From Sulfurovum sp. 16-42-52 (lineage in GTDB: Bacteria; Campylobacterota; Campylobacteria; Campylobacterales; Sulfurovaceae): a stretch of 60,013 nucleotides of DNA. Below the pieces are notes generated by a model that was not told the origin of the DNA, searched no databases, and was given only the letters and a program-made list of their open reading frames with translations. Below, in pieces: positions 30,897 to 54,887 of this stretch. The translations under genes were made by a program, and so were the position numbers. How positions within the stretch are numbered: the stretch's first letter is position 1; each line of letters opens with the position of its first letter. Location of the stretch: NCBI GenBank assembly GCA_002281755.1, contig NCHB01000018.1:1-60013 (forward strand). Reading direction: 5' to 3'.

Positions 30897-32279
30897 TTAC
30901 TCTTTTTTATCAAAAACCGTTTCACTGAACTCCGCATATTTGCCCCGCACCGCTTTTTTGAGTTCGATGGCAAACATATTGATATGCTCTTGGGAGTTTT
31001 TGGTTTCCTTGAGCAGTTTGGTGAGTCCATTGTTGTATTTGTTGAGATAAAAGTTGTCTATCTGGCGGTTTGAGCCGATGACAATGGCCGTACAGCTGTT
31101 ATCAAGTCGTGAAAGGATGAGCTGTGTGGTCTTTTCGGAGCTATTTTGCCACTCATCCAAGATGACCACGGCATCACTGAGTGTTCGTCCTCTGGCTTCT
31201 CCAGGCCAGAGTTTTTCGATGCGGTATTTGGCGATGAGTTCAAGTATTTTATTTTCAACCGCATGGACATTGTCTTGGCTGTCATGTTTTTTGAGCAATT
31301 TTTTGGCTATATGCTCTAATGTATCATTCAGCGCCATATTGTAGATACGAAATTTCTCATCATTACCTGCTAGATACCCCACATCTGCACCCTTATCTAA
31401 ACTTTCGATGGAGTTTCGCACATAAATGATTTTATCGAAATGCTTTCTTTCCACCAGCTTCATCGCGCATGTAAATGCCAAAAGTGTCTTACCGCTACCA
31501 GCTTTTGCATCGACTACGATAAGATCGTAAAAGTGGCTCAGTATGGCTTTCATATATAGTTTCTGTTCCAGATTGATGGGCTTAACCTTTAAGCCTCTGA
31601 AGTCATGCTCACTCACTACTTCTATATGCCCATCGTGTACTATCGCAGGGTAGGTATCACTGTCTGTCATCTTAAAAATATAGGAAAAATTATGGGGTTT
31701 ATGTTCAGGATCAAATGCAAAGATAGAAGCATGCTGAAGCTTTTTGATATGCAAAGGCTCCATCTCAATTGTTTTTACAAAATCAAACTCAGGTACAACC
31801 GCTTTGTCATCATGGAGGGTTTCAGTTTTGACATTTTTAAGTATGCCAAAAGTTCGTGCATAGACATCCAAAGAGACAAAAATCGTCTTGAGACCCTTAT
31901 AATACTGCTGTGCCAAAACAGCTACTTCTATGATACGTTTATCGTTGCTTTCATTCATAAACGCTGTATCGATATCGGTCTCATAGCGGTCTTTTGAGAT
32001 GATATGAATCACAAGGTGATCCACAAAAAACTTGGCTACTTTGAACCCCTCTTTGTGGTCGGCTTCTTTGACTTTTGCCTGGGCAAGCAGACGGGCAAAC
32101 TCACGCGCTTGGTAGCCTATCTCGCCTAAAATCTTTTTTTTGTCTTCAAGTTCGATGAGTACGGTTTCTGGGAAAACGATAATGTTGTTTCCATTGTCTG
32201 AGAGTTTGACAATGTTTTGAATGTCATTAAGGACAACATTAGTGTCAACGACGTACACCTTGGCATTTTTGGGACTCAT
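30897..32279 (-). CDS. PIN-PhoH family ATPase (PhoH2-type)
   Basis: 460 aa from the ATG at 32279, which follows AGAGGAG; the frame is open to 32333. The N-terminal PIN ribonuclease domain has VVDTNVVLND with the first acidic residues. The C-terminal PhoH-like ATPase has P-loop AGSGKT at residues 260-265 and VILDEWQNSS. Proteins of this architecture act as RNA helicase-ribonucleases and in some bacteria form toxin-antitoxin systems with a short upstream gene; no such partner is seen here. Despite the name there is no link to the pho regulon. Confidence 0.88.
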   Translation of the reverse strand: MSPKNAKVYVVDTNVVLNDIQNIVKLSDNGNNIIVFPETVLIELEDKKKILGEIGYQAREFARLLAQAKVKEADHKEGFKVAKFFVDHLVIHIISKDRYETDIDTAFMNESNDKRIIEVAVLAQQYYKGLKTIFVSLDVYARTFGILKNVKTETLHDDKAVVPEFDFVKTIEMEPLHIKKLQHASIFAFDPEHKPHNFSYIFKMTDSDTYPAIVHDGHIEVVSEHDFRGLKVKPINLEQKLYMKAILSHFYDLIVVDAKAGSGKTLLAFTCAMKLVERKHFDKIIYVRNSIESLDKGADVGYLAGNDEKFRIYNMALNDTLEHIAKKLLKKHDSQDNVHAVENKILELIAKYRIEKLWPGEARGRTLSDAVVILDEWQNSSEKTTQLILSRLDNSCTAIVIGSNRQIDNFYLNKYNNGLTKLLKETKNSQEHINMFAIELKKAVRGKYAEFSETVFDKKE

Positions 32280-32372
32280 AATTTCTCCTCTGCGCTTTGT
32301 CTTGGGATACACCCAAAGACAATCGTAGTGCAAAAGAGATACATTTTGGCATCAAAATACTGCGATGCTTAC

Positions 32373-34250: not shown

Positions 34251-34351
34251 AAAATCTCCATTTTGGTCTGTTCTTACTGTGTCTAAATCCCCTATGAATA
34301 TTTTACCCTATTATCACAAAAATTTGTATCCATTATGTTATACATCCCCGC

Positions 34352-34357
34352 TATAAT
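34352..34357 (+). promoter_or_regulatory. -10 of the lpxH-like gene
   Basis: TATAAT 31 nt before the ATG at 34389; the 138 bp region separates it from the divergent GGDEF-EAL gene. No strong ribosome binding site precedes the ATG. Confidence 0.5.
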
Positions 34358-34388: not shown

Positions 34389-35137
34389 ATGGATGATCCT
34401 ATCAAAGTACGTTCAATCTTTATCTCCGACATTCACTTAGGTACCAAATTTTCAAAAGCAGATGTTTTGCTTGATTTTATCAGAGACTATGAGTCTGAAA
34501 ACCTCTACCTTGTCGGTGATATTATTGATGGCTGGGCGATTAAACGCAAATTTACGTGGATGCAGTCACACTCGGATGTCATCCAAAAGATATTACGTAA
34601 AGCCCGAAAAAATACGCATGTCTATTTCATTGCTGGTAACCATGATGAATTTCTGCGCCCTTTTGTCCCCATACTCCTGGGTGACAGACTCAAAATAGAA
34701 CATGAAGTAGAGTATGAAGATTTGCATGGCAGAAGATTTTTAGTCACGCATGGCGATTTTTTTGATGCGATTACCATGACAAAAAAATGGCTGGCAGTTT
34801 TAGGGGATTACGGCTACGACTTGCTTTTGCATCTCAATGGTGTGGTGAATGCAACAAGGAGAGTCTTTGGCATCAACAAATACTGGTCACTCTCCAAATA
34901 CGCCAAAGACACCATTAAGTCTTCTGTCTCTTTTATCACCGACTATGAAGGTATGCTTGCCAGCCATGCCAAACATCACGACTATGACGGTGTGATTTGT
35001 GGACACATCATAAAGCCGAAATGCGTGAAATCGATGGTATACTTTACCTTAATTGCGGTGATTGGGTAGAGAGCTGCAGTGCAATCGTTGAAACATTGGA
35101 AGGTGAATGGAAAATCATACATTTCCTAGAGAAATAA
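34389..35137 (+). pseudogene. LpxH-like metallophosphatase with a 1-nt frameshift near the 3' end
   Basis: Calcineurin-type phosphatase related to UDP-2,3-diacylglucosamine diphosphatase of lipid A synthesis. Motifs SDIHLG, GDIIDGW, GNHDE and THGDFFD are present. At 35007-35010 the frame is broken: GGACACATC is followed by ATAAAG where CATAAAG would continue GHIHKAEMREIDGILYLNCG in the other frame to a stop at 35135-35137. As written, the product ends at 35069 (226 aa), and the metal-binding His of the last motif (GHxH) becomes Ile. One missing C restores the whole domain, so this is a recent deletion or a sequencing error. The restored tail overlaps the patatin gene by 31 bp. Confidence 0.8.
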
Positions 35138-44667: not shown

Positions 44668-45366
44668 CTACACAAAACGATATCCTACGCCCCAAACCGG
44701 GTTAAAATACTGTTGCTCATTTTTGGGATCAATTTTATTTTTAAGACGGTTAATGGCAACATTGACAGCATTATCATTCACCATTTCAACACCACTTCCC
44801 CAAACTTCATCTCTCAAAAAATCTCTAGTCAACGGTTTACCAATATGTTTCATAAAGGTATGTAACAACCTAAATTCAAGACTTGTTAAAAAAATCTGTT
44901 TTCCTTCCACATAGGTTTCATTTTTTGTAAGATCCAGTGTCAGAAATTTGTATTTGAGACGCTCTTGTTTTTGTATAACACCTGTTCTTCTGAGCAATGC
45001 TTTTACCCGAAGCGTCAAATGTGTAGGAGAAAAAGGTTTACACATGTAGTCGTCACAGCCCGATTCAAAACCTTCTTCTATCTCGGCTTCTTTGTCTTTG
45101 GCTGTCAGAAAGATTACAGGGATATCATACCCGGACTTCCGTAAATAGCTAACAAATTCGCTTCCTTCCATCCCGGGTAGGTTACGGTCTATGATCATCA
45201 AAGCAGGTGTCTCTTCTTCTAAAAACTGTTCTACATTTTCAGACGAAAGAAAACCTGTTACACGATAGCCCTCTTTACTTAAATGATACTCAACCAATTC
45301 TAAAATATCTACTTCATCTTCAATGACAACTATTTCAATGGCTTGTTCTGTTGAGTCTATTTGCAT
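44668..45366 (-). CDS. OmpR/PhoB-type response regulator (copy 1)
   Basis: 232 aa. Receiver domain with acidic pair E16-D17, phosphoacceptor D60 in IIDRNLPG, and the T/K positions in FLTAKDKE and CKPF. A C-terminal OmpR-type winged helix follows (SLEFRLLHTFM, RDFLRDEVWG, VWGVGYRFV). It is very similar to the regulator at 52537-53220, including the TGFLSSENVEQFLEEE segment, so the two are recent paralogs. It follows phoU, the place of a phoB-like gene. No histidine kinase is adjacent. A TATAAT lies 6 nt before the ATG. Confidence 0.88.
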   Translation of the reverse strand: MQIDSTEQAIEIVVIEDEVDILELVEYHLSKEGYRVTGFLSSENVEQFLEEETPALMIIDRNLPGMEGSEFVSYLRKSGYDIPVIFLTAKDKEAEIEEGFESGCDDYMCKPFSPTHLTLRVKALLRRTGVIQKQERLKYKFLTLDLTKNETYVEGKQIFLTSLEFRLLHTFMKHIGKPLTRDFLRDEVWGSGVEMVNDNAVNVAINRLKNKIDPKNEQQYFNPVWGVGYRFV

Positions 45367-45372
45367 CTGTAT

Positions 45373-45378
45373 ATTATA
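45373..45378 (-). promoter_or_regulatory. extended -10 of response regulator copy 1, possibly leaderless
   Basis: TATAAT preceded by TGTGT on the minus strand (TnTGn-TATAAT), ending 6 nt before the ATG at 45366, with no ribosome binding site in between. Confidence 0.5.
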
Positions 45379-45436
45379 ACACAGAGTGATTTGAACCTTG
45401 CCTTAGCTCTATACTTGTGAGCTTTTTAAAAGTGTC

Positions 45437-46102
45437 TTAGAGCTTTCCGCCTATACGAGCAAACAACAAGCGTGAAGAAATATCTTCAAGACGGTCAAGA
45501 ATTTTTGCGTTTTTTCTGATGTATTTAAGCAGATTCATCATCTCTTCATTCACACCACCCTCTTGGTGCATACTTTGCAATACCTCTTTTTCAATCATCG
45601 TGTAGATATCATCCGTCTTTGAATTTTCGACATCAATCTTGTTTGCAAGGTCTATTAATTTATCTTTATCTTCTGTCTGTTTTATCATCTCTATGGTATA
45701 TTCCAATGCCTTGATGGCACAACGATTAATATAAAGTGATTCTTTAATCACTTTTTTGAACTCTAGTTCCATATCTGGTCTACAAATCTCCATATTTTTA
45801 ATATAATTCTTTTCGTTAATGGCAATACGCTGTAAAGAAGAGGTAATTTTCAAAAAAGCCACCATCTCTCTAAGGTCTTTTGCTTCAGGAGAGTAGAGTG
45901 CAAAAATGTTCAAAATAAGATTGTCTATGGCCTCTACTTTTTCATTGATTGCGTGAAGCGGTATACCTGCTTGTTCGTAGCTGTTTGGATCACAAGCTTC
46001 AAGTGCCTGTAGTACAAGTTTTTGAAAAATGGTAAGGTCTTCAAGTACAGCAATCGTTTTTACTCTTACTTCAGCTAATTTTTCTTCGTTTTTACTTAAC
46101 AT
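45437..46102 (-). CDS. phoU: PhoU-like phosphate regulator
   Basis: 221 aa, all-helical, with the two PhoU three-helix halves. It lies directly after pstB, the usual place of phoU, and would adjust the Pst transporter and the PhoR/PhoB signal. The metal-binding E/DxxxD motif of the first half is altered (SLQRIAINE where LERIGDxA is typical); the second half keeps LDRLEDIS. Function should therefore be close to PhoU but with one weakened metal site. Confidence 0.8.
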   Translation of the reverse strand: MLSKNEEKLAEVRVKTIAVLEDLTIFQKLVLQALEACDPNSYEQAGIPLHAINEKVEAIDNLILNIFALYSPEAKDLREMVAFLKITSSLQRIAINEKNYIKNMEICRPDMELEFKKVIKESLYINRCAIKALEYTIEMIKQTEDKDKLIDLANKIDVENSKTDDIYTMIEKEVLQSMHQEGGVNEEMMNLLKYIRKNAKILDRLEDISSRLLFARIGGKL

Positions 46103-46126
46103 AGTTGTCCTTTTTTGTCTGGTCTC

Positions 46127-46915
46127 TTAACCGAATCTACCGGTAATATAATCTTCAGTGAGCTTCTGAGTAGGATTTAGAAATATCTTTTCCGTTGCGT
46201 CATACTCAATCAAATCTCCCAGATACATAAACGCCGTGTAGTCACTCAGTCTGCTTGCCTGCTGCATATTGTGTGTCACAATGACCACAGAGACCTCTTT
46301 TTTAAGCTCAGCAATGAGCTCTTCAATCGCACCTGTGGAAATAGGGTCAAGCGCAGAAGTCGGTTCATCAAAAAGCAATACTTCAGGCTTAAGTGCCACA
46401 GCTCTGGCGATGCACAGTCTTTGCTGTTGTCCACCGCTTAAGCCCAGTGCACTTTTTTTAAGCCTGTCTTTGGTTTCATTCCAAATCGCTGCACCTTTTA
46501 ATGCGCGTTCTACTCTGCCTTCAATGTCATCTTTGATGCCCGCTAATTTGAGTCCATAGGCGACATTGTCAAAGATACTCATAGGAAAAGGGGTGGGCTT
46601 TTGGAAAATCATCCCGACTTTTTGACGCAGCTGTATAAAGTCATTTTCTTTTTTCAGCTCTAGTATATTTTGTTTGCCACCTTTTTTGTCAAACAGATTG
46701 ATCTCACCCCCATAAGTATTGCCGGGGTAGAGGTCATGAATACGGTTCATCGCACGTAGCAGAGTAGACTTACCGCAACCACTTGGGCCGATGAGCGCTG
46801 TGATTTTGTTTTCTCGTATAGGGAGGTTGATGCTGATGAGTGAAGGTTTATCCACACCGGCATAGGTAAAATCAAAATCGTTAATCTCCATAATGTTTTG
46901 AGTCTCTGTCATCAA
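46127..46915 (-). CDS. pstB: phosphate ABC transporter ATPase
   Basis: 262 aa. Walker A GPSGCGKS at residues 43-50, the PstB-typical [18 protein letters not shown]-loop, signature [14 protein letters not shown], Walker [12 protein letters not shown] and the switch THNM. It drives high-affinity phosphate uptake with PstA and PstC. Length is standard. Confidence 0.97.
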
Positions 46916-46921
46916 AGCTCC

Positions 46922-47734
46922 TTATTTTTTATTTCGGGTCATATAGCGACCTATTAGATTGATGCATAAAACGATGACCGTCAACACGAAAGAAGCTGCC
47001 CAAGCCAACTCCCTACTTGCCTCATCAGGGTAAGTGGCAAGCGTATAGATGCTCACCGTAAGCGAAGGGAACTGCTCACTCAGATCCATCGTAAAAAACT
47101 GGTTGTTTGCCGAAGTAAACAAAAGCGGTGCCGTCTCCCCGATGATGCGGGCAAAAGAGAGTAATACCCCCGTGGTAATCCCCACCTTGGCAGCCTTGAT
47201 GACAATCTGAAGAATAATCTTATGCTTGCTACCACCCAAAGCCATCCCTGCTTCTCTCAGTTCTTTGGGTACAAGTGAGAGCATATTGTCCGTGGTATTG
47301 ATGATGATGGGTATCATCATAATCGCCAATGCCGCAATTCCCGCCCAGCCGTTATAGCCCATGAAAGGATCGACCAGCAAGGCAAAGACAAACACCCCGA
47401 TGACGATGGAGGGTGCGGACATCATTACATCTGAAAGGTTACGAATGACCGAAGCCAATTTGGCGTTGGTACTGTACTCTCTAAGGTAGATGCCTGCAAG
47501 CATCCCAAGAGGAATGGCGATAAGCGATGCCAACAGTGCCATCGTAAACTGTCCTACAAGCAGGTTCCGTATACCGCCTTCGACCAAATCGTTCGTAAAA
47601 GTAGAAAGGTGCAAACTGGTGATGCCTTTGTAGCTAAGCGTAGCGAGTATCCAAAATAAAAACCCTATCCCCAGAAGTGCGGAAAGAGAGGAGAGGATGA
47701 GGATGATTTTGTTCAGTAGAAGTCTATTCATCAT
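46922..47734 (-). CDS. pstA: phosphate ABC transporter permease PstA
   Basis: 270 aa, six membrane helices, with the EAA-type loop ELREAGMALGGSKHKIILQIVIKAA (given in part) that contacts PstB. It overlaps pstC by 4 bp (ATGA). N-terminus and length are family-typical. Confidence 0.94.
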   Translation of the reverse strand: MMNRLLLNKIILILSSLSALLGIGFLFWILATLSYKGITSLHLSTFTNDLVEGGIRNLLVGQFTMALLASLIAIPLGMLAGIYLREYSTNAKLASVIRNLSDVMMSAPSIVIGVFVFALLVDPFMGYNGWAGIAALAIMMIPIIINTTDNMLSLVPKELREAGMALGGSKHKIILQIVIKAAKVGITTGVLLSFARIIGETAPLLFTSANNQFFTMDLSEQFPSLTVSIYTLATYPDEASRELAWAASFVLTVIVLCINLIGRYMTRNKK

Positions 47735-48585
47735 GCTACCTTTTTACCAAAGAAATAAAACTTCGCCACAGAGATAATCGCAAAACTTACCACAAACAAA
47801 ATCAGTGCCAGGTAATACATACTGCTTATCTCCAAATCTTCTGCTTCAGAGAAGTTATTGGCAAGTAAGACGGGTATGGACGTTGTAGGGTCTGTCACTC
47901 TGCTTGGCAAAGTCATCACTGAACCTATCAGAAATGCCACTGCCATCGTCTCACCCAACGCACGCCCCAATGCCAAGATGATTGAGCCGATAATCCCGCC
48001 CTTGGCATAGGGCATCACCACATCTTTGATGACTTCAAATTTGGTAGCCCCCATAGCATACGCAGATTCTTTCAGTACAGCCGGTGCCGTGTGCATCGCA
48101 TCTCTTGTAATGGCCGCCATAAATGGGATAATCATAATCGCCAATACCACCCCTGCAGTCAGTAGCCCCACACCGTCCCCACCTACACTCTCCTGTACGA
48201 TGGGCGCAAAGTAAAAAAGTCCCCACATCCCGTAAATGATGCTGGGGATGGCTGCAAGCAGCTCAATCGCCACGGAGACAGGGTACGCCAGCTTGGCTGA
48301 AGCAATCTCGGTTAAAAAAATGGCGATACCCATCGCAATGGGTGTGGCAATCACCATGGCAATCAGAGTGCTGAGCAAAGTGCCGACAATAGGAATGTAT
48401 CCTCCAAAGACACCTCCCTCTTCTTCCTCATCTGCCTCCCACACTTCAGTCAACAAAAAATCAAAACCAAAAGTATGAAGCGCTTCCTGTGCATAGGTAA
48501 AAAGCACAGAGAAGATGCCTACAAGTATAAAAAATGACAGTGTTGCAGAAAAAAAAGAGAGATTTCTAAAGAGTTGACCGCCCAT
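47731..48585 (-). CDS. pstC: phosphate ABC transporter permease PstC
   Basis: 284 aa, six membrane helices. The coupling loop KESAYAMGATKFEVIKDVVMPYA and GIIGSIILALGRALGETMAVAFLIG (given in part) are the PstC signature. A short acidic stretch (ADEEEEGG, near residue 50) in a periplasmic loop is a local feature. It follows pstS by 12 bp. Confidence 0.95.
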   Translation of the reverse strand: MGGQLFRNLSFFSATLSFFILVGIFSVLFTYAQEALHTFGFDFLLTEVWEADEEEEGGVFGGYIPIVGTLLSTLIAMVIATPIAMGIAIFLTEIASAKLAYPVSVAIELLAAIPSIIYGMWGLFYFAPIVQESVGGDGVGLLTAGVVLAIMIIPFMAAITRDAMHTAPAVLKESAYAMGATKFEVIKDVVMPYAKGGIIGSIILALGRALGETMAVAFLIGSVMTLPSRVTDPTTSIPVLLANNFSEAEDLEISSMYYLALILFVVSFAIISVAKFYFFGKKVA

Positions 48586-48597
48586 TGTGTGCCCTTT

Positions 48598-49596
48598 TTA
48601 CTTAATCTTTTTGGCTTCCCAGTACTGTCTTATCTGTGCCTTGGTTGACTCTGGAAGCGGTACATAGCCAAGCTTTGTTGCCGCCTCATCGCCATGGGTG
48701 TATGCCCAGTCAAAAAAAGCAACGACTTGTTTGTCTTTCTCTGTTTTTTCAGACGGCAGCAAGATAAACGTTGCCGCTACGATAGGATAGGACGTTGCAC
48801 CAGCAGGGTCAGCGATCACGGCATAAAAATCATTCTGTGGCGTCCATGTTGCATATTTGGCAGCATCTTGGAAAGAAGCCAAAGTCGGGTTCACAAACTG
48901 CCCTTCTTTGTTCTGTATCTGTGCAGCATTCAAGCCAAGCTCTTGTTTGAAAGAGTACTCCACATAACCGATAGAATTTTTAATCTGCTGAATGTTTGCC
49001 GATACACCCGAGTTGGATTTACCTGCTACGACTTTTGCCGCTTTCCATTGTGGCTGTTTGCTGACTTTAATGTTTGCATCAAGCTTGTTCAAAAAGTAGG
49101 TAAAGTTAAAGGTTGTACCCGACTTGTCTGCTCTGACCGCAACGGTGATAGGCTCATGGGGAAGCGTGAGTCCTGCATTGTGTGCAGTTATCTCTTTGTC
49201 ATCCCAGTAGGTGATACTTCCGTTAAAAATGCCTGAGAGTGCAGCACGGCTTAGCTTGAGTTCACCGTCTTTGATGCCATCGATGTTGTACGCCAATACT
49301 ACAGAGCCGACAACAGCAGGAAACATCAAGAGTTTTTGTTTTTTGAGTTTTTTTGCTTTTAATGGCTCGTCTGAGCCTGCAAAGTCAACCATTCTTTTGG
49401 AGATGGCTTTGACACCGTCACCAGAACCTGTGGGGGTATAGTTGATTTGATTTTGTGTTTGGGTGTAGTAGGCTGAAGTCCACTCCTTGTACACCGGTCC
49501 TGGGAATGATGCTCCCCTGCCACCGAGTTCGTCTGCGCAGATTGTTGAGAAAAGGCTCAAAGCCGCTATAACCGCTGTTAAAAATGTTTTTTGCAT
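48598..49596 (-). CDS. pstS: periplasmic phosphate-binding protein
   Basis: 332 aa with a signal peptide (residues 1-21). Phosphate ligands of PstS are recognisable: GRGASFPGPVYKEW near the N-terminus, TGSGDGVKA, FAGSDEPL and VRADKSGTTFNFTYFL. It delivers phosphate to PstCA. It has its own promoter region with a Pho-box-like repeat at 49662-49679. Confidence 0.95.
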   Translation of the reverse strand: MQKTFLTAVIAALSLFSTICADELGGRGASFPGPVYKEWTSAYYTQTQNQINYTPTGSGDGVKAISKRMVDFAGSDEPLKAKKLKKQKLLMFPAVVGSVVLAYNIDGIKDGELKLSRAALSGIFNGSITYWDDKEITAHNAGLTLPHEPITVAVRADKSGTTFNFTYFLNKLDANIKVSKQPQWKAAKVVAGKSNSGVSANIQQIKNSIGYVEYSFKQELGLNAAQIQNKEGQFVNPTLASFQDAAKYATWTPQNDFYAVIADPAGATSYPIVAATFILLPSEKTEKDKQVVAFFDWAYTHGDEAATKLGYVPLPESTKAQIRQYWEAKKIK

Positions 49597-49646: not shown

Positions 49647-49679
49647 AGTATAGTGTAGGCTGGAAACATTTTGATGACA
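49647..49679 (-). promoter_or_regulatory. Pho-box-like repeat and -10 before pstS
   Basis: On the minus strand TGTCATC-AAAA-TGTTTCC (49679-49662), an 11-bp period direct repeat, is followed 9 nt later by TATACT (49652-49647). It matches the E. coli Pho box pattern (CTGTCAT-N4-CTGTCAC) and the other boxes of this region. Confidence 0.55.
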
Positions 49680-49686
49680 GAGCCGC

Positions 49687-51402
49687 TTATGCTGAAAAAT
49701 AGCGCCTCTTTTTTGTCTCCTTGAGCAGTTGAAGATCCGCAACGATAAACCCGTCAATGCAGTTGTTAAAGTCTTTATCGTACCCAAAATCCAAGAACTT
49801 TACCCCCCCCTCTTCACACAACTCCGAATACTGCTTAAACAGGGTAGGTACAGTATAGCCCATAAATCCGAGCTCTTCTTTGAGGATTTTCAAATCGCTT
49901 TGATACTCTCCGCCTGTAAATACCATTTCGCAGTGATCTTGTACCCATTTGGGTGCGATGTAGGGTGTTTTATGTTTGACCAAGACGGTATCGGACGAAA
50001 AATACCTGCTGTAAAAATACACCATCAGACCCTGTGCCTTTTGATTAAAGCTGTCACTCAGACTCACCGCCCCGAAAAGATACTGGATATCAGGTCTTTG
50101 TCTCACATACGCACCGATACCCTGCCAAAGATAGTCCAGTGCTCTGCTGTTCCAGTATTTTGGTTGCACAAAACTTCTGCCAAGCTCCAAGCCTCTTTCG
50201 AGATAGTGATCAAACTCGCCGGTAAAAGAAAAAAGTGTACTGGTATAGAGTCCCTGTTTCTCAAAATCATCCAATATCTCACTACATAAACCCAAGCGGT
50301 ATGCACCTGCTATCTCAAGCGCCTCATCATCCCAGATGATGAGATGTTTATAGTAAAAATCATAGCTGTCTATGTCGCGTTTTTTACCACTTCCCTCACC
50401 TACATGCCGAAAACTGATCTCTCTGAGTCTTCCTATCTCTTTAATAACCGAATTTTCTATCTCAGATTCATACAGTAAAATTCGCTTCCCGTCGTTCGTA
50501 TGTCCCAGCTCGATACTGTTTTTCAGTTCAGACTTGAGTTCATGACGCTGTTCAGGGACAGAGATTTCATTTTGTGTTGCAAAAATAGGTTGGTGATTTT
50601 TGGCTACTTTATAGAGATGTTTCCTTAGAAGCTTGACTGTCTCTTTTTGTGAAAGATTGGGCAGATTGTACGCCTCAAAAGGGATGCATTTTCCTATCGT
50701 AAACCCGATACTTTTACCTCTTGCTTTGAACATCTCATGGGGCAGTGTCGCCGTTGCCAACGCACGGTTGATCATGGAAAGAAGATAAAAATTTTTTGAG
50801 TTGGTTGCCTTGATGTAGATGGGCAGTATAGGGGCACGCATTTTTGTGGCTATCTTCAAAAAACCGCTTTTCCACGGTGTGTCTTTGATGCCGTTTGGTT
50901 TGGCACGACTCACTTCCCCCGAAGGAAAGATGATGACCGCTTGCTCGGCTTCGAGTGCACTATAGATGCCCTTAACCGTCTCTTTGTCCATTCTGCCGTT
51001 GATATTGTCCACAGGGATGATGATCTCTTTAAGATTGTCAAACTGTGCCAAAAATGAGTTTGCGACTATCTTGATATCTTTACGCACATCTTTAAGCAGG
51101 TGCAAAAGTGCCATCGCATCCAGCGCACCCAAAGGATGATTTGCCATGATGACCGTTCGCCCGTATGCAGGGATACGAGTCAGTTCATTGGTTTTAAGCC
51201 CGATGGAAATGTCAAAATAATCCACAATCGCTTCAACAAAGGAAAAGGTATCTTTGTTTGCATTTTGTACCATAAATTGGTTGATCTCATTTTCATGAAA
51301 CAGATTTTTCATGCCACGAAAAACGAGTTTTTTAGCCAGTTCCGGAAACGCCTGCAAACTGGGGTAGTGATGCAGCATATACTCTTCAACGCTGAGTTGC
51401 AT
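49687..51402 (-). CDS. olsF: OlsF-like bifunctional acyltransferase (ornithine lipid synthesis)
   Basis: 571 aa in two parts. The N-terminal part (about 75-270) is a PlsC-type acyltransferase with NHPLGALD (H89, D95) and FPSGEVSR. The C-terminal part (about 290-560) is an OlsB-like GNAT acyltransferase (EIAGAYRLG, LGRSFVQPKYWNSRALDYLWQG). This fusion is the architecture of OlsF, in which the C-terminal part N-acylates ornithine and the N-terminal part adds the second acyl chain, giving a phosphorus-free membrane lipid. Its place before pstSCAB and behind a Pho-box-like site fits lipid replacement under phosphate limitation. Assignment rests on architecture and context. Confidence 0.75.
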   Translation of the reverse strand: MQLSVEEYMLHHYPSLQAFPELAKKLVFRGMKNLFHENEINQFMVQNANKDTFSFVEAIVDYFDISIGLKTNELTRIPAYGRTVIMANHPLGALDAMALLHLLKDVRKDIKIVANSFLAQFDNLKEIIIPVDNINGRMDKETVKGIYSALEAEQAVIIFPSGEVSRAKPNGIKDTPWKSGFLKIATKMRAPILPIYIKATNSKNFYLLSMINRALATATLPHEMFKARGKSIGFTIGKCIPFEAYNLPNLSQKETVKLLRKHLYKVAKNHQPIFATQNEISVPEQRHELKSELKNSIELGHTNDGKRILLYESEIENSVIKEIGRLREISFRHVGEGSGKKRDIDSYDFYYKHLIIWDDEALEIAGAYRLGLCSEILDDFEKQGLYTSTLFSFTGEFDHYLERGLELGRSFVQPKYWNSRALDYLWQGIGAYVRQRPDIQYLFGAVSLSDSFNQKAQGLMVYFYSRYFSSDTVLVKHKTPYIAPKWVQDHCEMVFTGGEYQSDLKILKEELGFMGYTVPTLFKQYSELCEEGGVKFLDFGYDKDFNNCIDGFIVADLQLLKETKKRRYFSA

Positions 51403-51611
51403 TAGGCAATCCTGTAGGTGTGGTTTATCTCTTCCATGAGTCGTGAATGAATCGTCTTGATTGTAGCGTTTGAGTGAAAAAGATCTTCAACCAAATCCCA
51501 CTCTTCATACACTAGACCCATGGCTTCTTCTTCATCGAGGGAAAATGTTTTGGCAAGCTCTTGTGCCAAATCTTCCAGTTTTTTACTAGATATCCATAGT
51601 TCATCATTCAT
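51402..51611 (-). CDS. 69-aa acidic protein of unknown function
   Basis: 69 aa, helical, acidic, beginning MNDELWISSKKLEDLAQEL, with no cysteines, signal or membrane segment. Its end overlaps the OlsF-like start (ATGA), so they are co-translated, and it is the first gene after the Pho-box-like site at 51655. No family recognised; it may assist the acyltransferase or be a small regulator. Confidence 0.65.
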   Translation of the reverse strand: MNDELWISSKKLEDLAQELAKTFSLDEEEAMGLVYEEWDLVEDLFHSNATIKTIHSRLMEEINHTYRIA

Positions 51612-51639
51612 CGTGTTTTCCTCATTTTATGATTTGACA

Positions 51640-51672
51640 CTATAAGCTGAAGCTATAACATTTCAATAACAT
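51640..51672 (-). promoter_or_regulatory. Pho-box-like repeat and -10 before the olsF operon
   Basis: Minus strand TGTTATT-GAAA-TGTTATA (51672-51655), period 11 bp, followed by TATAGT at 51645-51640, 29 nt before the ATG of the 69-aa gene. It is the least conserved of the four boxes. Confidence 0.45.
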
Positions 51673-51712
51673 TCTTTATAGGCTTTAGCTTAAAGGCAGA
51701 GCCAAAAGTTGC

Positions 51713-52432
51713 TTACTGAAACTTATACCCCAAACCACGAACAGGTATGATGTAGTTTTTTTCATTAAACGGATCGATCTTTTTTTTCAGACGGTTGATG
51801 GTTACATTAATGGTACGCTTTTGTGTCGATCTGTTGTCACACCATATGCTTTCAAGCAGATAATCGCGTTCGAGTACTTTATTTTTATTTTTCAAAAAGA
51901 TTTCAAGTAGTTTAAACTCCAGCCTAGTGAGGAGGGCTTCCGTATGATGCACAAAAACCCTGCGCGCATTAAAATCCATCACAATATCTCTTACTTTCAG
52001 TTTTTCACACTGTGCCACATGGGTACGTCTGAGTATGGCTTTGATGCGATACATCAGCTCTTTGACGCTAAACGGTTTTTTAAGGTAATCATCGCCGCCA
52101 CATTTAAACCCTGCTTCGATGTCTGCTTCTTTTGTTTTATCCGATACAAAGACAACCGGTGTACTCACACCTCTTTCCCGCATGGCACAGACAAAACGGA
52201 TGCCCTCTTCACCCTCTGCACTATGATCAAGTACGATCAGATCGATGCCCTCTTGCAGTACAGCGTGTGCAGAGGGTACAGAGTCTGTTTCAATAACTTT
52301 ATATCTTTCTTGCCTCATCGTTGTAATTGCCCATTCATACCTTGCCACATCCTTGGCAACCAGCAAAATAGTTGCAACAGGAGGCAAAGCATTTTCTATG
52401 GCAAAACCTTTTTTATCTACATCAATCTTCAT
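51713..52432 (-). CDS. OmpR-type response regulator with atypical receiver
   Basis: 239 aa. The C-terminal OmpR winged helix is normal (TRLEFKLLEIF, ERDYLLESIW, VRGLGYKFQ). The receiver keeps phosphoacceptor D69 (IVLDHS), Ser in FVSDKT and the Lys in KKPF, but the acidic pair that binds magnesium is reduced to AKD (residues 26-28). Phosphorylation may be weak or absent. It is distinct from the other two regulators of the region. Translation from ATG 52432 with AAGGAG about 11 nt upstream; a Pho-box-like site is at 52499. Confidence 0.85.
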   Translation of the reverse strand: MKIDVDKKGFAIENALPPVATILLVAKDVARYEWAITTMRQERYKVIETDSVPSAHAVLQEGIDLIVLDHSAEGEEGIRFVCAMRERGVSTPVVFVSDKTKEADIEAGFKCGGDDYLKKPFSVKELMYRIKAILRRTHVAQCEKLKVRDIVMDFNARRVFVHHTEALLTRLEFKLLEIFLKNKNKVLERDYLLESIWCDNRSTQKRTINVTINRLKKKIDPFNEKNYIIPVRGLGYKFQ

Positions 52433-52485
52433 CTGAAGTTACGCTCCTTAAACAGGGAAAAATACATGGGAATTTTGTTTTTGAT

Positions 52486-52516
52486 GGTATAAAAAAGGGG
52501 TAACAAATGGGTAACA
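52486..52516 (-). promoter_or_regulatory. Pho-box-like repeat and -10 before the atypical regulator
   Basis: Minus strand TGTTACC-CATT-TGTTACC (52516-52499), an exact 7-bp direct repeat with 11 bp period, and TATACC at 52491-52486, 7 nt downstream. Confidence 0.55.
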
Positions 52517-52531
52517 CGGGCTAAAGCCGTG
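52515..52531 (-). terminator. weak hairpin after response regulator copy 2
   Basis: CACGG-CTTTAGC-CCGTG on the minus strand, 6 bp past the stop codon region, overlapping the Pho-box-like repeat. There is no T run directly behind the stem, so termination is uncertain. Confidence 0.3.
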
Positions 52532-52536
52532 TCTGC

Positions 52537-53220
52537 TTAGATGAGTTTATAGCCTATGCCCCATACCGGTGCAAAATACTCTTTTGTTCCGCTGGGGTCT
52601 ATTTTCTTTTTGAGTCTGTTCATGGCTACGTTGATGGTCTTGTCGTGAAATTTACTGCTGTCATCACCCCAGACTTCATCACGCAAAAAGTCTCTATCAA
52701 GCGGCTGATTGGGGTTTTTCACAAAAGTGTGCAGAAGCCTGAACTCCAGATTGGTCAACTCTACATTTTGCTCATTCACTGACAATTCACGTTTATTCAT
52801 ATCCAGAACCAGATCTCGGTATTTGACCTTCTCCGCAGTGCGTACACCGGAGCGTTTCAGCAGTGCTGAGACTCTCAAAAGAAGCTCTTTAGTATTAAAC
52901 GGCTTGGTAATGTAGTCGTCACCGCCACTGTGAAATCCCTCTTCAAGGTCTTTTTCTTTGTCTTTTGCAGTGAGAAAGATCACCGGCATATCATACCCAG
53001 TCTCTCGCATCTGTGCAACAAACTCACTGCCCTCAAGCCCAGGAAGGTTTCTGTCTACTATCAAAAGTGCAGGATTTTCTTCTTCTAAAAACTTCTCAAC
53101 ATTTTCAGTGGACAAAAATCCCGTAACGGTATAGCCTTCTTTGCCGAGGTGATATTCCAAAAGCTCTAAAATGTCCTCTTCGTCTTCGATGACTACTATT
53201 TCTATGTTTCTATTTTCCAT
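52537..53220 (-). CDS. phoB: OmpR/PhoB-type response regulator (copy 2)
   Basis: 227 aa. Complete receiver: acidic pair E12-D13, phosphoacceptor D56 in IVDRNLPG, Thr in FLTAKDKE and Lys in TKPF. DNA-binding domain of the OmpR type (NLEFRLLHTFV, RDFLRDEVWGDD, VWGIGYKLI). It is the closest paralog of the regulator at 44668-45366. A Pho-box-like repeat lies immediately before it, so it may regulate itself, as phoB does. Symbol given from context; no PhoR kinase is in the window. Confidence 0.8.
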   Translation of the reverse strand: MENRNIEIVVIEDEEDILELLEYHLGKEGYTVTGFLSTENVEKFLEEENPALLIVDRNLPGLEGSEFVAQMRETGYDMPVIFLTAKDKEKDLEEGFHSGGDDYITKPFNTKELLLRVSALLKRSGVRTAEKVKYRDLVLDMNKRELSVNEQNVELTNLEFRLLHTFVKNPNQPLDRDFLRDEVWGDDSSKFHDKTINVAMNRLKKKIDPSGTKEYFAPVWGIGYKLI

Positions 53221-53229
53221 ATTGACATC

Positions 53230-53259
53230 TTAATATGCTTTGGTAACAATTTGGTGACA
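53230..53259 (-). promoter_or_regulatory. Pho-box-like repeat and -10 before response regulator copy 2
   Basis: Minus strand TGTCACC-AAAT-TGTTACC (53259-53242), period 11 bp; TATTAA at 53235-53230 follows 6 nt later, and the ATG is only 9 nt beyond it, so the leader is very short. A third similar half-site (TGTAACC, 53268-53262) overlaps the end of the Pit gene with a different spacing. Confidence 0.55.
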
Positions 53260-53263
53260 AAGG

Positions 53264-54808
53264 TTACAGCCCTATCTCTTTAAGCACCATAAATATACTG
53301 CCTGCAAGCCCTGCAGAGATCGGAACAGTAATGACCCATGCGGCGATGATCTTCACAACCATTTCACGCTTGATATGATTTTCCTGCAAAGAGCGTTTGA
53401 TGACCTTGATTGCTTTCTTTTGTGCTTTGATTGCTTCAAGCAGCTCATATTTACGTTTATACTCATCATCTGTAGATTGCAAAGAAGAAAGCGCTGCTTT
53501 GAGGCTTGTCAGCTTTGTCATCTCTATATGAAAGACTTCATGGTTTTTTTCCATATTTTTCGAATCAAGCCACTCTCTTAAAAACCCTACCCCAAAGATA
53601 GCGCCTACAGCAATGTGTGTAGAAGAGACAGGCAATCCGAGTTGTGATGCAAGTATCACCGTAATGGCAGCTGCCATCATAATCGAAAATGCGCGTATCT
53701 GGTCAAGCTCCGTGATCTCCGAACCTACGGTTTTGATCAGTCGTGGGCCAAAAAGTATAAGCCCTACAGAGATACCTACCCCGCCAACCACCATAACCCA
53801 CAAGGGTATCGCCGCCTTTTCAGACACGGCAGCATTTGTTAAAGCGTCATACACTGCAGCCAGAGGACCTACTGCATTGGCAACGTCATTGGCACCATGG
53901 GCAAAACTAAGCAGTGCAGCAGAAAATATAAGCGGAACGGTAAACAGCAGATTGATCTCTGCTCTTCTGCCCTCCATGCCTATCACTTTTTGTGCGATTT
54001 TGGGCTTGAGCATCACATACGTCAGAAGTGCCACAAGACCGCCCAAAAACGATGCCACCAAAAGAGATGGTTTATCACTTTGCGGTAAAAAGCTCAACAC
54101 TTCAACGATGTTAGGCCATATCTTTTTAAATCCTTTGAGTACAAGGTAGGTGGTAAATGCAGCTGCCATAATCGCTACCAAAATGGGTACCATTTTCTTA
54201 GCTGCCTCTAAAGTGTTTTTTTGATAGATGATTTGAGATTTGATGACATACAAAAATAGCGCAGCGATAATCCCGCCCATCACAGGCGATATGACCCACG
54301 ATGCCACTATCTCTCCCATCGTCCCCCATGAGACGATAGAAATCCCGCCCGCAGCGATGCCGCCACCCAGTACACCGCCCACAATCGCATGCGTCGTTGA
54401 AACAGGTGCTTTGAGCCATGTTGCAAGGTTTAGCCACAGCGCAGCCGCAAGCAAAGCGGCTGACATCGCATAGACAAAAAGCATTGGATCTCCAGAAAAG
54501 GCATCGGGGGAAATAATACCGTCTTTGATAGTTCCCACAACATCACCACCGGCTATCAATGCACCTGCAGTTTCAAATACAGCTGCGATCACTATAGCCC
54601 CTGCGATGCTCAATGCACCCGAACCCACCGCGGGGCCAACATTGTTAGCCACGTCATTTGCTCCGATGTTCATCGCCATATACGCGCCAAACACTGCAGA
54701 GAGAACCAAAAATTCTCCATGTAGCCTGTCACCCATAATACTTTGCGCATACCATGCAGCAACAGCTGCAAAACCTGCACCTAAAATAATTCTCATTGTG
54801 TTGTTCAT
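53264..54808 (-). CDS. pit: inorganic phosphate transporter of the Pit family
   Basis: 514 aa from the ATG at 54808 (MNNTMRII); the frame is open to 54871, across the promoter at 54840. The two PiT repeats are present, GANDVANNVGPAVGSGAL near residue 50 and GANDVANAVGPLAAV in the second half. About ten membrane helices, plus a soluble charged segment near residues 440-490 rich in Lys/Glu. It takes up phosphate (or metal phosphate) with protons or sodium. It lies between the porin and phoB-like genes. Confidence 0.9.
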   Translation of the reverse strand: MNNTMRIILGAGFAAVAAWYAQSIMGDRLHGEFLVLSAVFGAYMAMNIGANDVANNVGPAVGSGALSIAGAIVIAAVFETAGALIAGGDVVGTIKDGIISPDAFSGDPMLFVYAMSAALLAAALWLNLATWLKAPVSTTHAIVGGVLGGGIAAGGISIVSWGTMGEIVASWVISPVMGGIIAALFLYVIKSQIIYQKNTLEAAKKMVPILVAIMAAAFTTYLVLKGFKKIWPNIVEVLSFLPQSDKPSLLVASFLGGLVALLTYVMLKPKIAQKVIGMEGRRAEINLLFTVPLIFSAALLSFAHGANDVANAVGPLAAVYDALTNAAVSEKAAIPLWVMVVGGVGISVGLILFGPRLIKTVGSEITELDQIRAFSIMMAAAITVILASQLGLPVSSTHIAVGAIFGVGFLREWLDSKNMEKNHEVFHIEMTKLTSLKAALSSLQSTDDEYKRKYELLEAIKAQKKAIKVIKRSLQENHIKREMVVKIIAAWVITVPISAGLAGSIFMVLKEIGL

Positions 54809-54839
54809 CTTTTTCCTTATCTCAAATTTAGATGGCACT

Positions 54840-54845
54840 ATTATA
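54840..54845 (-). promoter_or_regulatory. -10 of the Pit gene
   Basis: TATAAT on the minus strand, 31 nt before the ATG at 54808 and directly after the terminator of the porin gene. Confidence 0.55.
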
Positions 54846-54848
54846 AAC

Positions 54849-54868
54849 AAAAAATGCCCTGTTGGCAT
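54849..54868 (-). terminator. terminator of the porin gene
   Basis: ATGCC-loop-GGCAT hairpin followed by TTTTTT on the minus strand, about 20 bp beyond the porin stop. Confidence 0.75.
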
Positions 54869-54887
54869 CACCTTTCAACCCTCTTTC

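Follow-up and report, generated by a model that had tools for sequence, protein, structure and literature searches.

Gene content of the phosphate region

The window analysed here, a stretch of 60,013 nucleotides of the Sulfurovum sp. 16-42-52 genome, carries a minus-strand gene cluster in the order TonB receptor, porin, pit, RR3, RR2, orf69, olsF, pstSCAB, phoU, RR1 and recQ. The pstS gene (48598..49596) matched TIGR00975 at 303.9 bits (cut-off 205), and its product is 95% and 81% identical to the PstS proteins of two Sulfurovum MAGs. The genes pstC, pstA, pstB and phoU (45437..48585) follow downstream, in synteny with relatives. The bifunctional ornithine lipid synthase gene olsF (49687..51402) scored 772.5 bits against NF052615, above the cut-off of 620. 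Its start is overlapped by orf69 (51402..51611), a 69-aa ORF that stands before olsF in many relatives. A family search placed orf69 in no known family, and it is a possible OlsF partner. At the other end, pit (53264..54871) encodes a PHO4-family phosphate transporter (PF01384, E 4.9e-109). The arrangement of pit, RR3, orf69-olsF, pst and phoU is common to relatives. Some of these also carry phoX (PF05787) or ppk2 (PF03976), either between phoU and RR1 (L069, L070, L073) or between RR1 and recQ (L072); the phoU-RR1-recQ spot of this genome contains neither.

Three regulator genes belong to the cluster: RR3 (52537..53220), RR2 (51713..52432) and RR1 (44668..45366), all on the minus strand. All three products combine receiver and Trans_reg_C domains and are thus OmpR/PhoB response regulators. 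PhoB was the best-scoring family for each, though none reached the PhoB equivalog cut-off of 296.2 bits (TIGR02154; RR3 171.9, RR1 182 and RR2 168.5 bits). RR1 is a paralogue of RR3 (64% identical), and the two form separate orthologous groups in a phylogenetic tree. RR2 formed a long branch, so its position is unreliable. The RR2 receiver is degenerate: it keeps the phospho-acceptor Asp but has Ala-Lys in place of the acidic pair. In another genus, some RR2 homologues have no acceptor Asp.

Two more relevant genes lie elsewhere in the window. The first, phoH (30897..32279, minus strand), encodes PIN and PhoH domains (PF02562, 146.6 bits; gathering score 27). The second, on the plus strand (34389..35137), encodes a PlcP-like phosphoesterase of the LpxH-fold, calcineurin type (PF00149), with a Metallophos domain and weak LpxH similarity but no match to a curated PlcP model. 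Its intact part is 61% identical to the relatives' protein. The frame is broken near 35010-35040: agreement with relatives runs through the N-terminal part as far as ...CGHI, after which the conserved C-terminus is encoded in a different frame. The gene may be truly broken, or the break may stem from an error in sequencing. Relatives have intact copies, and in several genomes the gene adjoins RR3, pstS, olsF, or a glycosyltransferase gene followed by phoH and olsF.

Six predicted Pho-box promoters with a fixed geometry

Six predicted promoters in the window share one architecture, in which two direct repeats of 7 nt with 4 nt between them (an 11-bp period) are followed by a -10 hexamer after exactly 9 nt (6/6 sites). 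The original prediction listed four 18-bp boxes, which are present as written, all on the minus strand, with the same 11-bp unit spacing and each oriented with its gene downstream. The pstSCAB-phoU promoter (49647..49679, score 29.4 with the 33-bp matrix described below) consists of TGTCATC-AAAA-TGTTTCC (49662-49679) and the -10 TATACT (49647-49652). The RR3 promoter (53227..53259, score 26.2) has TGTCACC-AAAT-TGTTACC (53242-53259) and TAAGAT, and the RR2 promoter (52484..52516, score 22.5) has TGTTACC-CATT-TGTTACC (52499-52516) and TACCAT. The weak orf69-olsF promoter (51639..51671, score 12.0) has its box at 51654-51671 and a TATAGT hexamer. This box had been attributed to an olsF operon; it does precede that operon, the first gene of which is orf69. 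The boxes do lie closely upstream of a -10, as was also proposed, but the suggested distance of 6-10 nt gives way to a constant 9 nt in all four. The broader range likely came from TATTAA, 6 nt past the RR3 box. We rejected this hexamer in favour of TAAGAT, because a TAnnAT-like hexamer at the 9-nt position is conserved in relatives.

The earlier count of four fell short by two sites. A fifth box, TGTATCC-ATTA-TGTTATA (34325-34342), stands with TATAAT before the PlcP-like gene (34325..34357, plus strand, score 13.3). The sixth, TGATGCC-AAAA-TGTATCT with TACGAT (32322..32354, minus strand, score 15.1), lies 42 nt before phoH.

We scored the window with two matrices. The 18-bp matrix was trained on pstS promoters of family relatives only, excluding the genome under study to avoid circularity. 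Among roughly 120,000 window positions, it placed the RR3 (23.0), pstS (22.2), RR2 (19.8) and olsF (14.2) boxes at ranks 1, 2, 3 and 5. The 33-bp matrix covered the box, the 9 nt and the -10, and was trained on 59 sites from relatives. It recovered the six sites with the scores given above, while the best non-site scored 3.0. Under a first-order Markov null, 0.11 matches scoring at least 10 are expected per window, and none scoring at least 20 occurred in 20 Mb. All window matches above 3.0 precede a gene, so the motif is not as frequent inside genes as before them. A covariance-model search with the 33-bp alignment was abandoned, since its local scoring and filters are poor for so short a motif; the ungapped matrix and an exact-geometry pattern replaced it.

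Sites elsewhere in the genome and in relatives

The whole 1.99-Mb genome, in which the window is contig C32, was searched with the exact-geometry pattern. The 18-bp box alone, with two mismatches allowed, is barely more frequent than its reversed control (71 against 57 matches), and the -10 geometry is therefore needed. The exact-geometry pattern yielded 13 matches against seven for the reversed control, five of the 13 falling inside the window, which represents 3% of the genome. The phoH site has TGA for TGT in its first unit, thus misses the strict pattern and was found by the matrix only. One match outside the window precedes a second pstS (contig C33:11064-12065), encoding a 47% identical PstS. 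A further candidate, with the -10 GATAAT, precedes a gene for a PBP_like_2-OmpA (PstS-like/OmpA) fusion at C50:14380-16050. Matches before isocitrate dehydrogenase (C27:11091) and at C37:18461 were set aside, as they have no -10 at 9 nt.

Sites scoring at least 10 were found before pstS in 45 of 46 distinct upstream regions from relatives, before orf69 in 15/16 and before pstC in 31/34. They were less frequent before PlcP-like genes (16/30) and phoH (5/11, about half). Part of the relatives' sites counted here also trained the matrix; with non-training sites alone, the counts were 17/18 for pstS, 13/14 for orf69 and 18/21 for pstC. Control upstream regions gave 0/20 for phoU, 0/32 for pstA, 0/13 for recQ and 1/27 for pstB, and shuffled sequences less than 0.2%. 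A site was also present upstream of RR3 in 26 of 35 relatives and of RR1 in none of five. In 90% of the relatives' sites TA...T stood exactly 9 nt past the box, compared with 0-9% at 5-8 nt and 30% at 4 nt. The two nearest named Sulfurovum MAGs have kept the pstS box and its -10 while the flanks have diverged, and the footprint of the orf69-olsF promoter is conserved in L299 and L300.

The association extends to the order. The best site outscored shuffled sequences (p<0.05) in 27 of 30 pstS upstream regions, and nearly all of these order-level sites had TAnnnT at the 9-nt spacing. As negative controls we used 20 regions from the same order that surround weak matches to the PstS family, probably unrelated to phosphate; none contained a site above 8. 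The sites before phosphate genes define a conserved Pho box of practical use, TGTWAYC-N4-TGTWWCC followed after 9 nt by TAnnnT. It applies to Sulfurovum and, in the case of pstS, to the wider Campylobacterales, and with it phosphate regulons may be predicted in environmental genomes for which there are no experiments.

No Pho box precedes pit in the window. In five relatives (L068, L069, L071, L072, L077), a high-scoring box that points the other way lies immediately upstream of pit. This reversed box overlaps a box-like sequence in forward orientation, itself followed after 9 nt by a -10. In those relatives, the pair possibly exerts dual or negative control over the low-affinity transporter.

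A candidate sensor kinase

We found no histidine kinase gene in the window's phosphate cluster. Between their phoU and RR1 genes, relatives have a 629-638-aa ORF that was considered as a kinase and turned out to be PhoX. Sister genera possess complete pstSCAB-phoU-RR-HK operons, whose kinases are 457-475 aa long and have a periplasmic region. In one-way blastp searches, these kinases matched an orphan PhoR-like kinase of the present genome best by far (E 1e-59 to 1e-80), the next kinase of this genome mostly reaching only about 1e-12. The orphan kinase (341 aa; G000, contig C12:40333-41358) has HisKA and HATPase_c domains and, as read by eye, two adjacent hydrophobic segments. In G062 a kinase gene lies directly before RR3-orf69-olsF, and in G036 one of the orphan type lies directly before the PlcP-like gene. 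From this orthology and linkage, we consider the orphan kinase, which unlike its pst-linked relatives has no periplasmic domain, the best candidate for the cognate kinase. It was matched in all 120 family genomes, including those without pstS, and its role may therefore be broader.

A proposed phosphate-starvation regulon

The original prediction saw in the boxes a candidate regulon of phosphate genes and their regulators, and at the sequence level these genes do share the motif. Very probably, the boxes serve as operators in a phosphate-starvation regulon of the PhoB type. What we observed directly is the sequence of the sites, their geometry, their conservation and the gene content; from these we infer binding, activation and the response to phosphate. 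The two 7-bp half-sites, 11 bp apart and 9 nt before the -10 hexamer, would sit at the -35 position. Phosphate scarcity would lead to the phosphorylation of a PhoB-like regulator (RR3 most likely), which would then bind both direct repeats head to tail and recruit RNA polymerase. Switching on pstSCAB-phoU would provide high-affinity uptake, switching on orf69-olsF would yield phosphorus-free ornithine lipids, and the PlcP-like phosphoesterase would release phosphate from phospholipids. The genes phoH, RR3 and RR2 would be switched on as well, RR3 being autoregulated. Beyond uptake, the regulon thus appears to replace phospholipids of the membrane with lipids free of phosphorus, which would tie phosphate scarcity to the replacement of phospholipids by ornithine lipids in these sulfur-oxidising bacteria.

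The RR3 -10 ends 6 nt before the ATG, and in 24 of the 26 relatives with a site it ends 4-9 nt before the start. With the -10 so near the ATG, the RR3 mRNA is probably leaderless, starting at or next to the AUG. The same pattern is predicted at the PlcP-like genes of many relatives. For RR1, which lacks a Pho box, a strong TATAAT near the ATG (45366-45400) suggests a constitutive leaderless transcript.

Although RR3 is the likely activator at the boxes, the three paralogues have similar DNA-binding domains (47-64% identity to RR3), and the main box protein might instead be RR1 or the degenerate-receiver RR2, the latter by occupying or latching the boxes without phosphorylation. The RR2 gene has a strong box of its own, and degenerate receivers also occur in its homologues from another genus. 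We regard this as unlikely, given that the box is conserved at a constant distance before RR3 orthologues, that RR1 has no box, and that RR2, besides its long branch in the tree, is missing from most clusters of relatives. More tentatively, RR2 could be a built-in second regulator. Its gene has a strong Pho box, and its receiver would no longer be normally phosphorylated. On this reading RR2 would hold the same boxes without need of the kinase, latching or damping the phosphate response, and its counterpart would be the unlinked PhoR without a periplasmic domain. A testable prediction is that the degenerate-receiver regulator modulates the response.

The boxes might also serve an OmpR/PhoB-family regulator of another signal, with the phosphate genes forming only part of its regulon; the candidate kinase and an RR1/RR3-type regulator do occur in family genomes without this pstS. 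This seems very unlikely, as the association with pstS is order-wide and all well-supported sites in the genome itself precede phosphate or lipid-replacement genes or regulators. Chance matches to an AT-rich repeat motif, to which the near-parity of the 18-bp box with its reversed control might point, have next to no likelihood in view of the relatives-only matrix, the constant -10 spacing, the conservation and the negative controls. For the pstS, RR3 and orf69-olsF sites chance is already refuted, while the phoH site could still be a chance match.

Comparison with known phosphate regulons

The Campylobacter jejuni PhosR/PhosS system belongs to the same order, and its PhosR box reportedly has the consensus GTTTCNAAAANGTTTC. 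The family relative L060 has TGTTTCCAAAATGTTTCC before pstS, and the consensus so reported lies exactly inside this sequence. The boxes had been thought to differ from the C. jejuni PhosR motif; as the reported box has the same 11-bp phase, that difference is doubtful. The kinase gene phosS is adjacent in C. jejuni, whereas the cluster in the window has no kinase gene.

The predicted likeness to the E. coli Pho box, which consists of two 11-bp direct repeats (PMC4415409), holds in general. In both systems TGT half-sites form 11-bp direct repeats that lie at -35, a short way upstream of the -10, and pst-phoU, phoH and a regulator gene are among the known or predicted targets. Head-to-tail binding at -35 and polymerase recruitment are proposed by analogy with E. 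coli PhoB (PMC4415409). In contrast to E. coli, the Sulfurovum half-site is TGTAACC/TGTTTCC rather than CTGTCAT, the kinase gene is unlinked, olsF and a PlcP-like gene are predicted targets, and the regulator mRNA is probably leaderless.

PhoB is established as a regulator of olsF in Vibrio cholerae, and epsilonproteobacteria are known to possess OlsF genes (PMC12186959). In marine bacteria, Pho boxes precede plcP and partner glycosyltransferase genes (PMC4796936); we found no mention of epsilonproteobacteria in that paper. Since both types of control were already known, the proposed Sulfurovum regulon is new but its type is not. As in PlcP/Agt and OlsF remodelling, boxes stand before plcP-type genes, with a glycosyltransferase partner in some Sulfurovum relatives. 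Unlike in those systems, a single gene region of Sulfurovum, a member of the Campylobacterota, holds both modules, and the same box precedes each.

RR2 resembles the ChxR-type atypical response regulators (PMC3960148) in being a PhoB-family protein with a degenerate receiver. It differs from them in lying inside a proposed phosphate regulon and adjoining an intact paralogue. Degenerate-receiver PhoB paralogues, in which either the acidic pair or the phospho-Asp is lost, recur in the phosphate clusters of two genera (the window; L065, L066 and L234).
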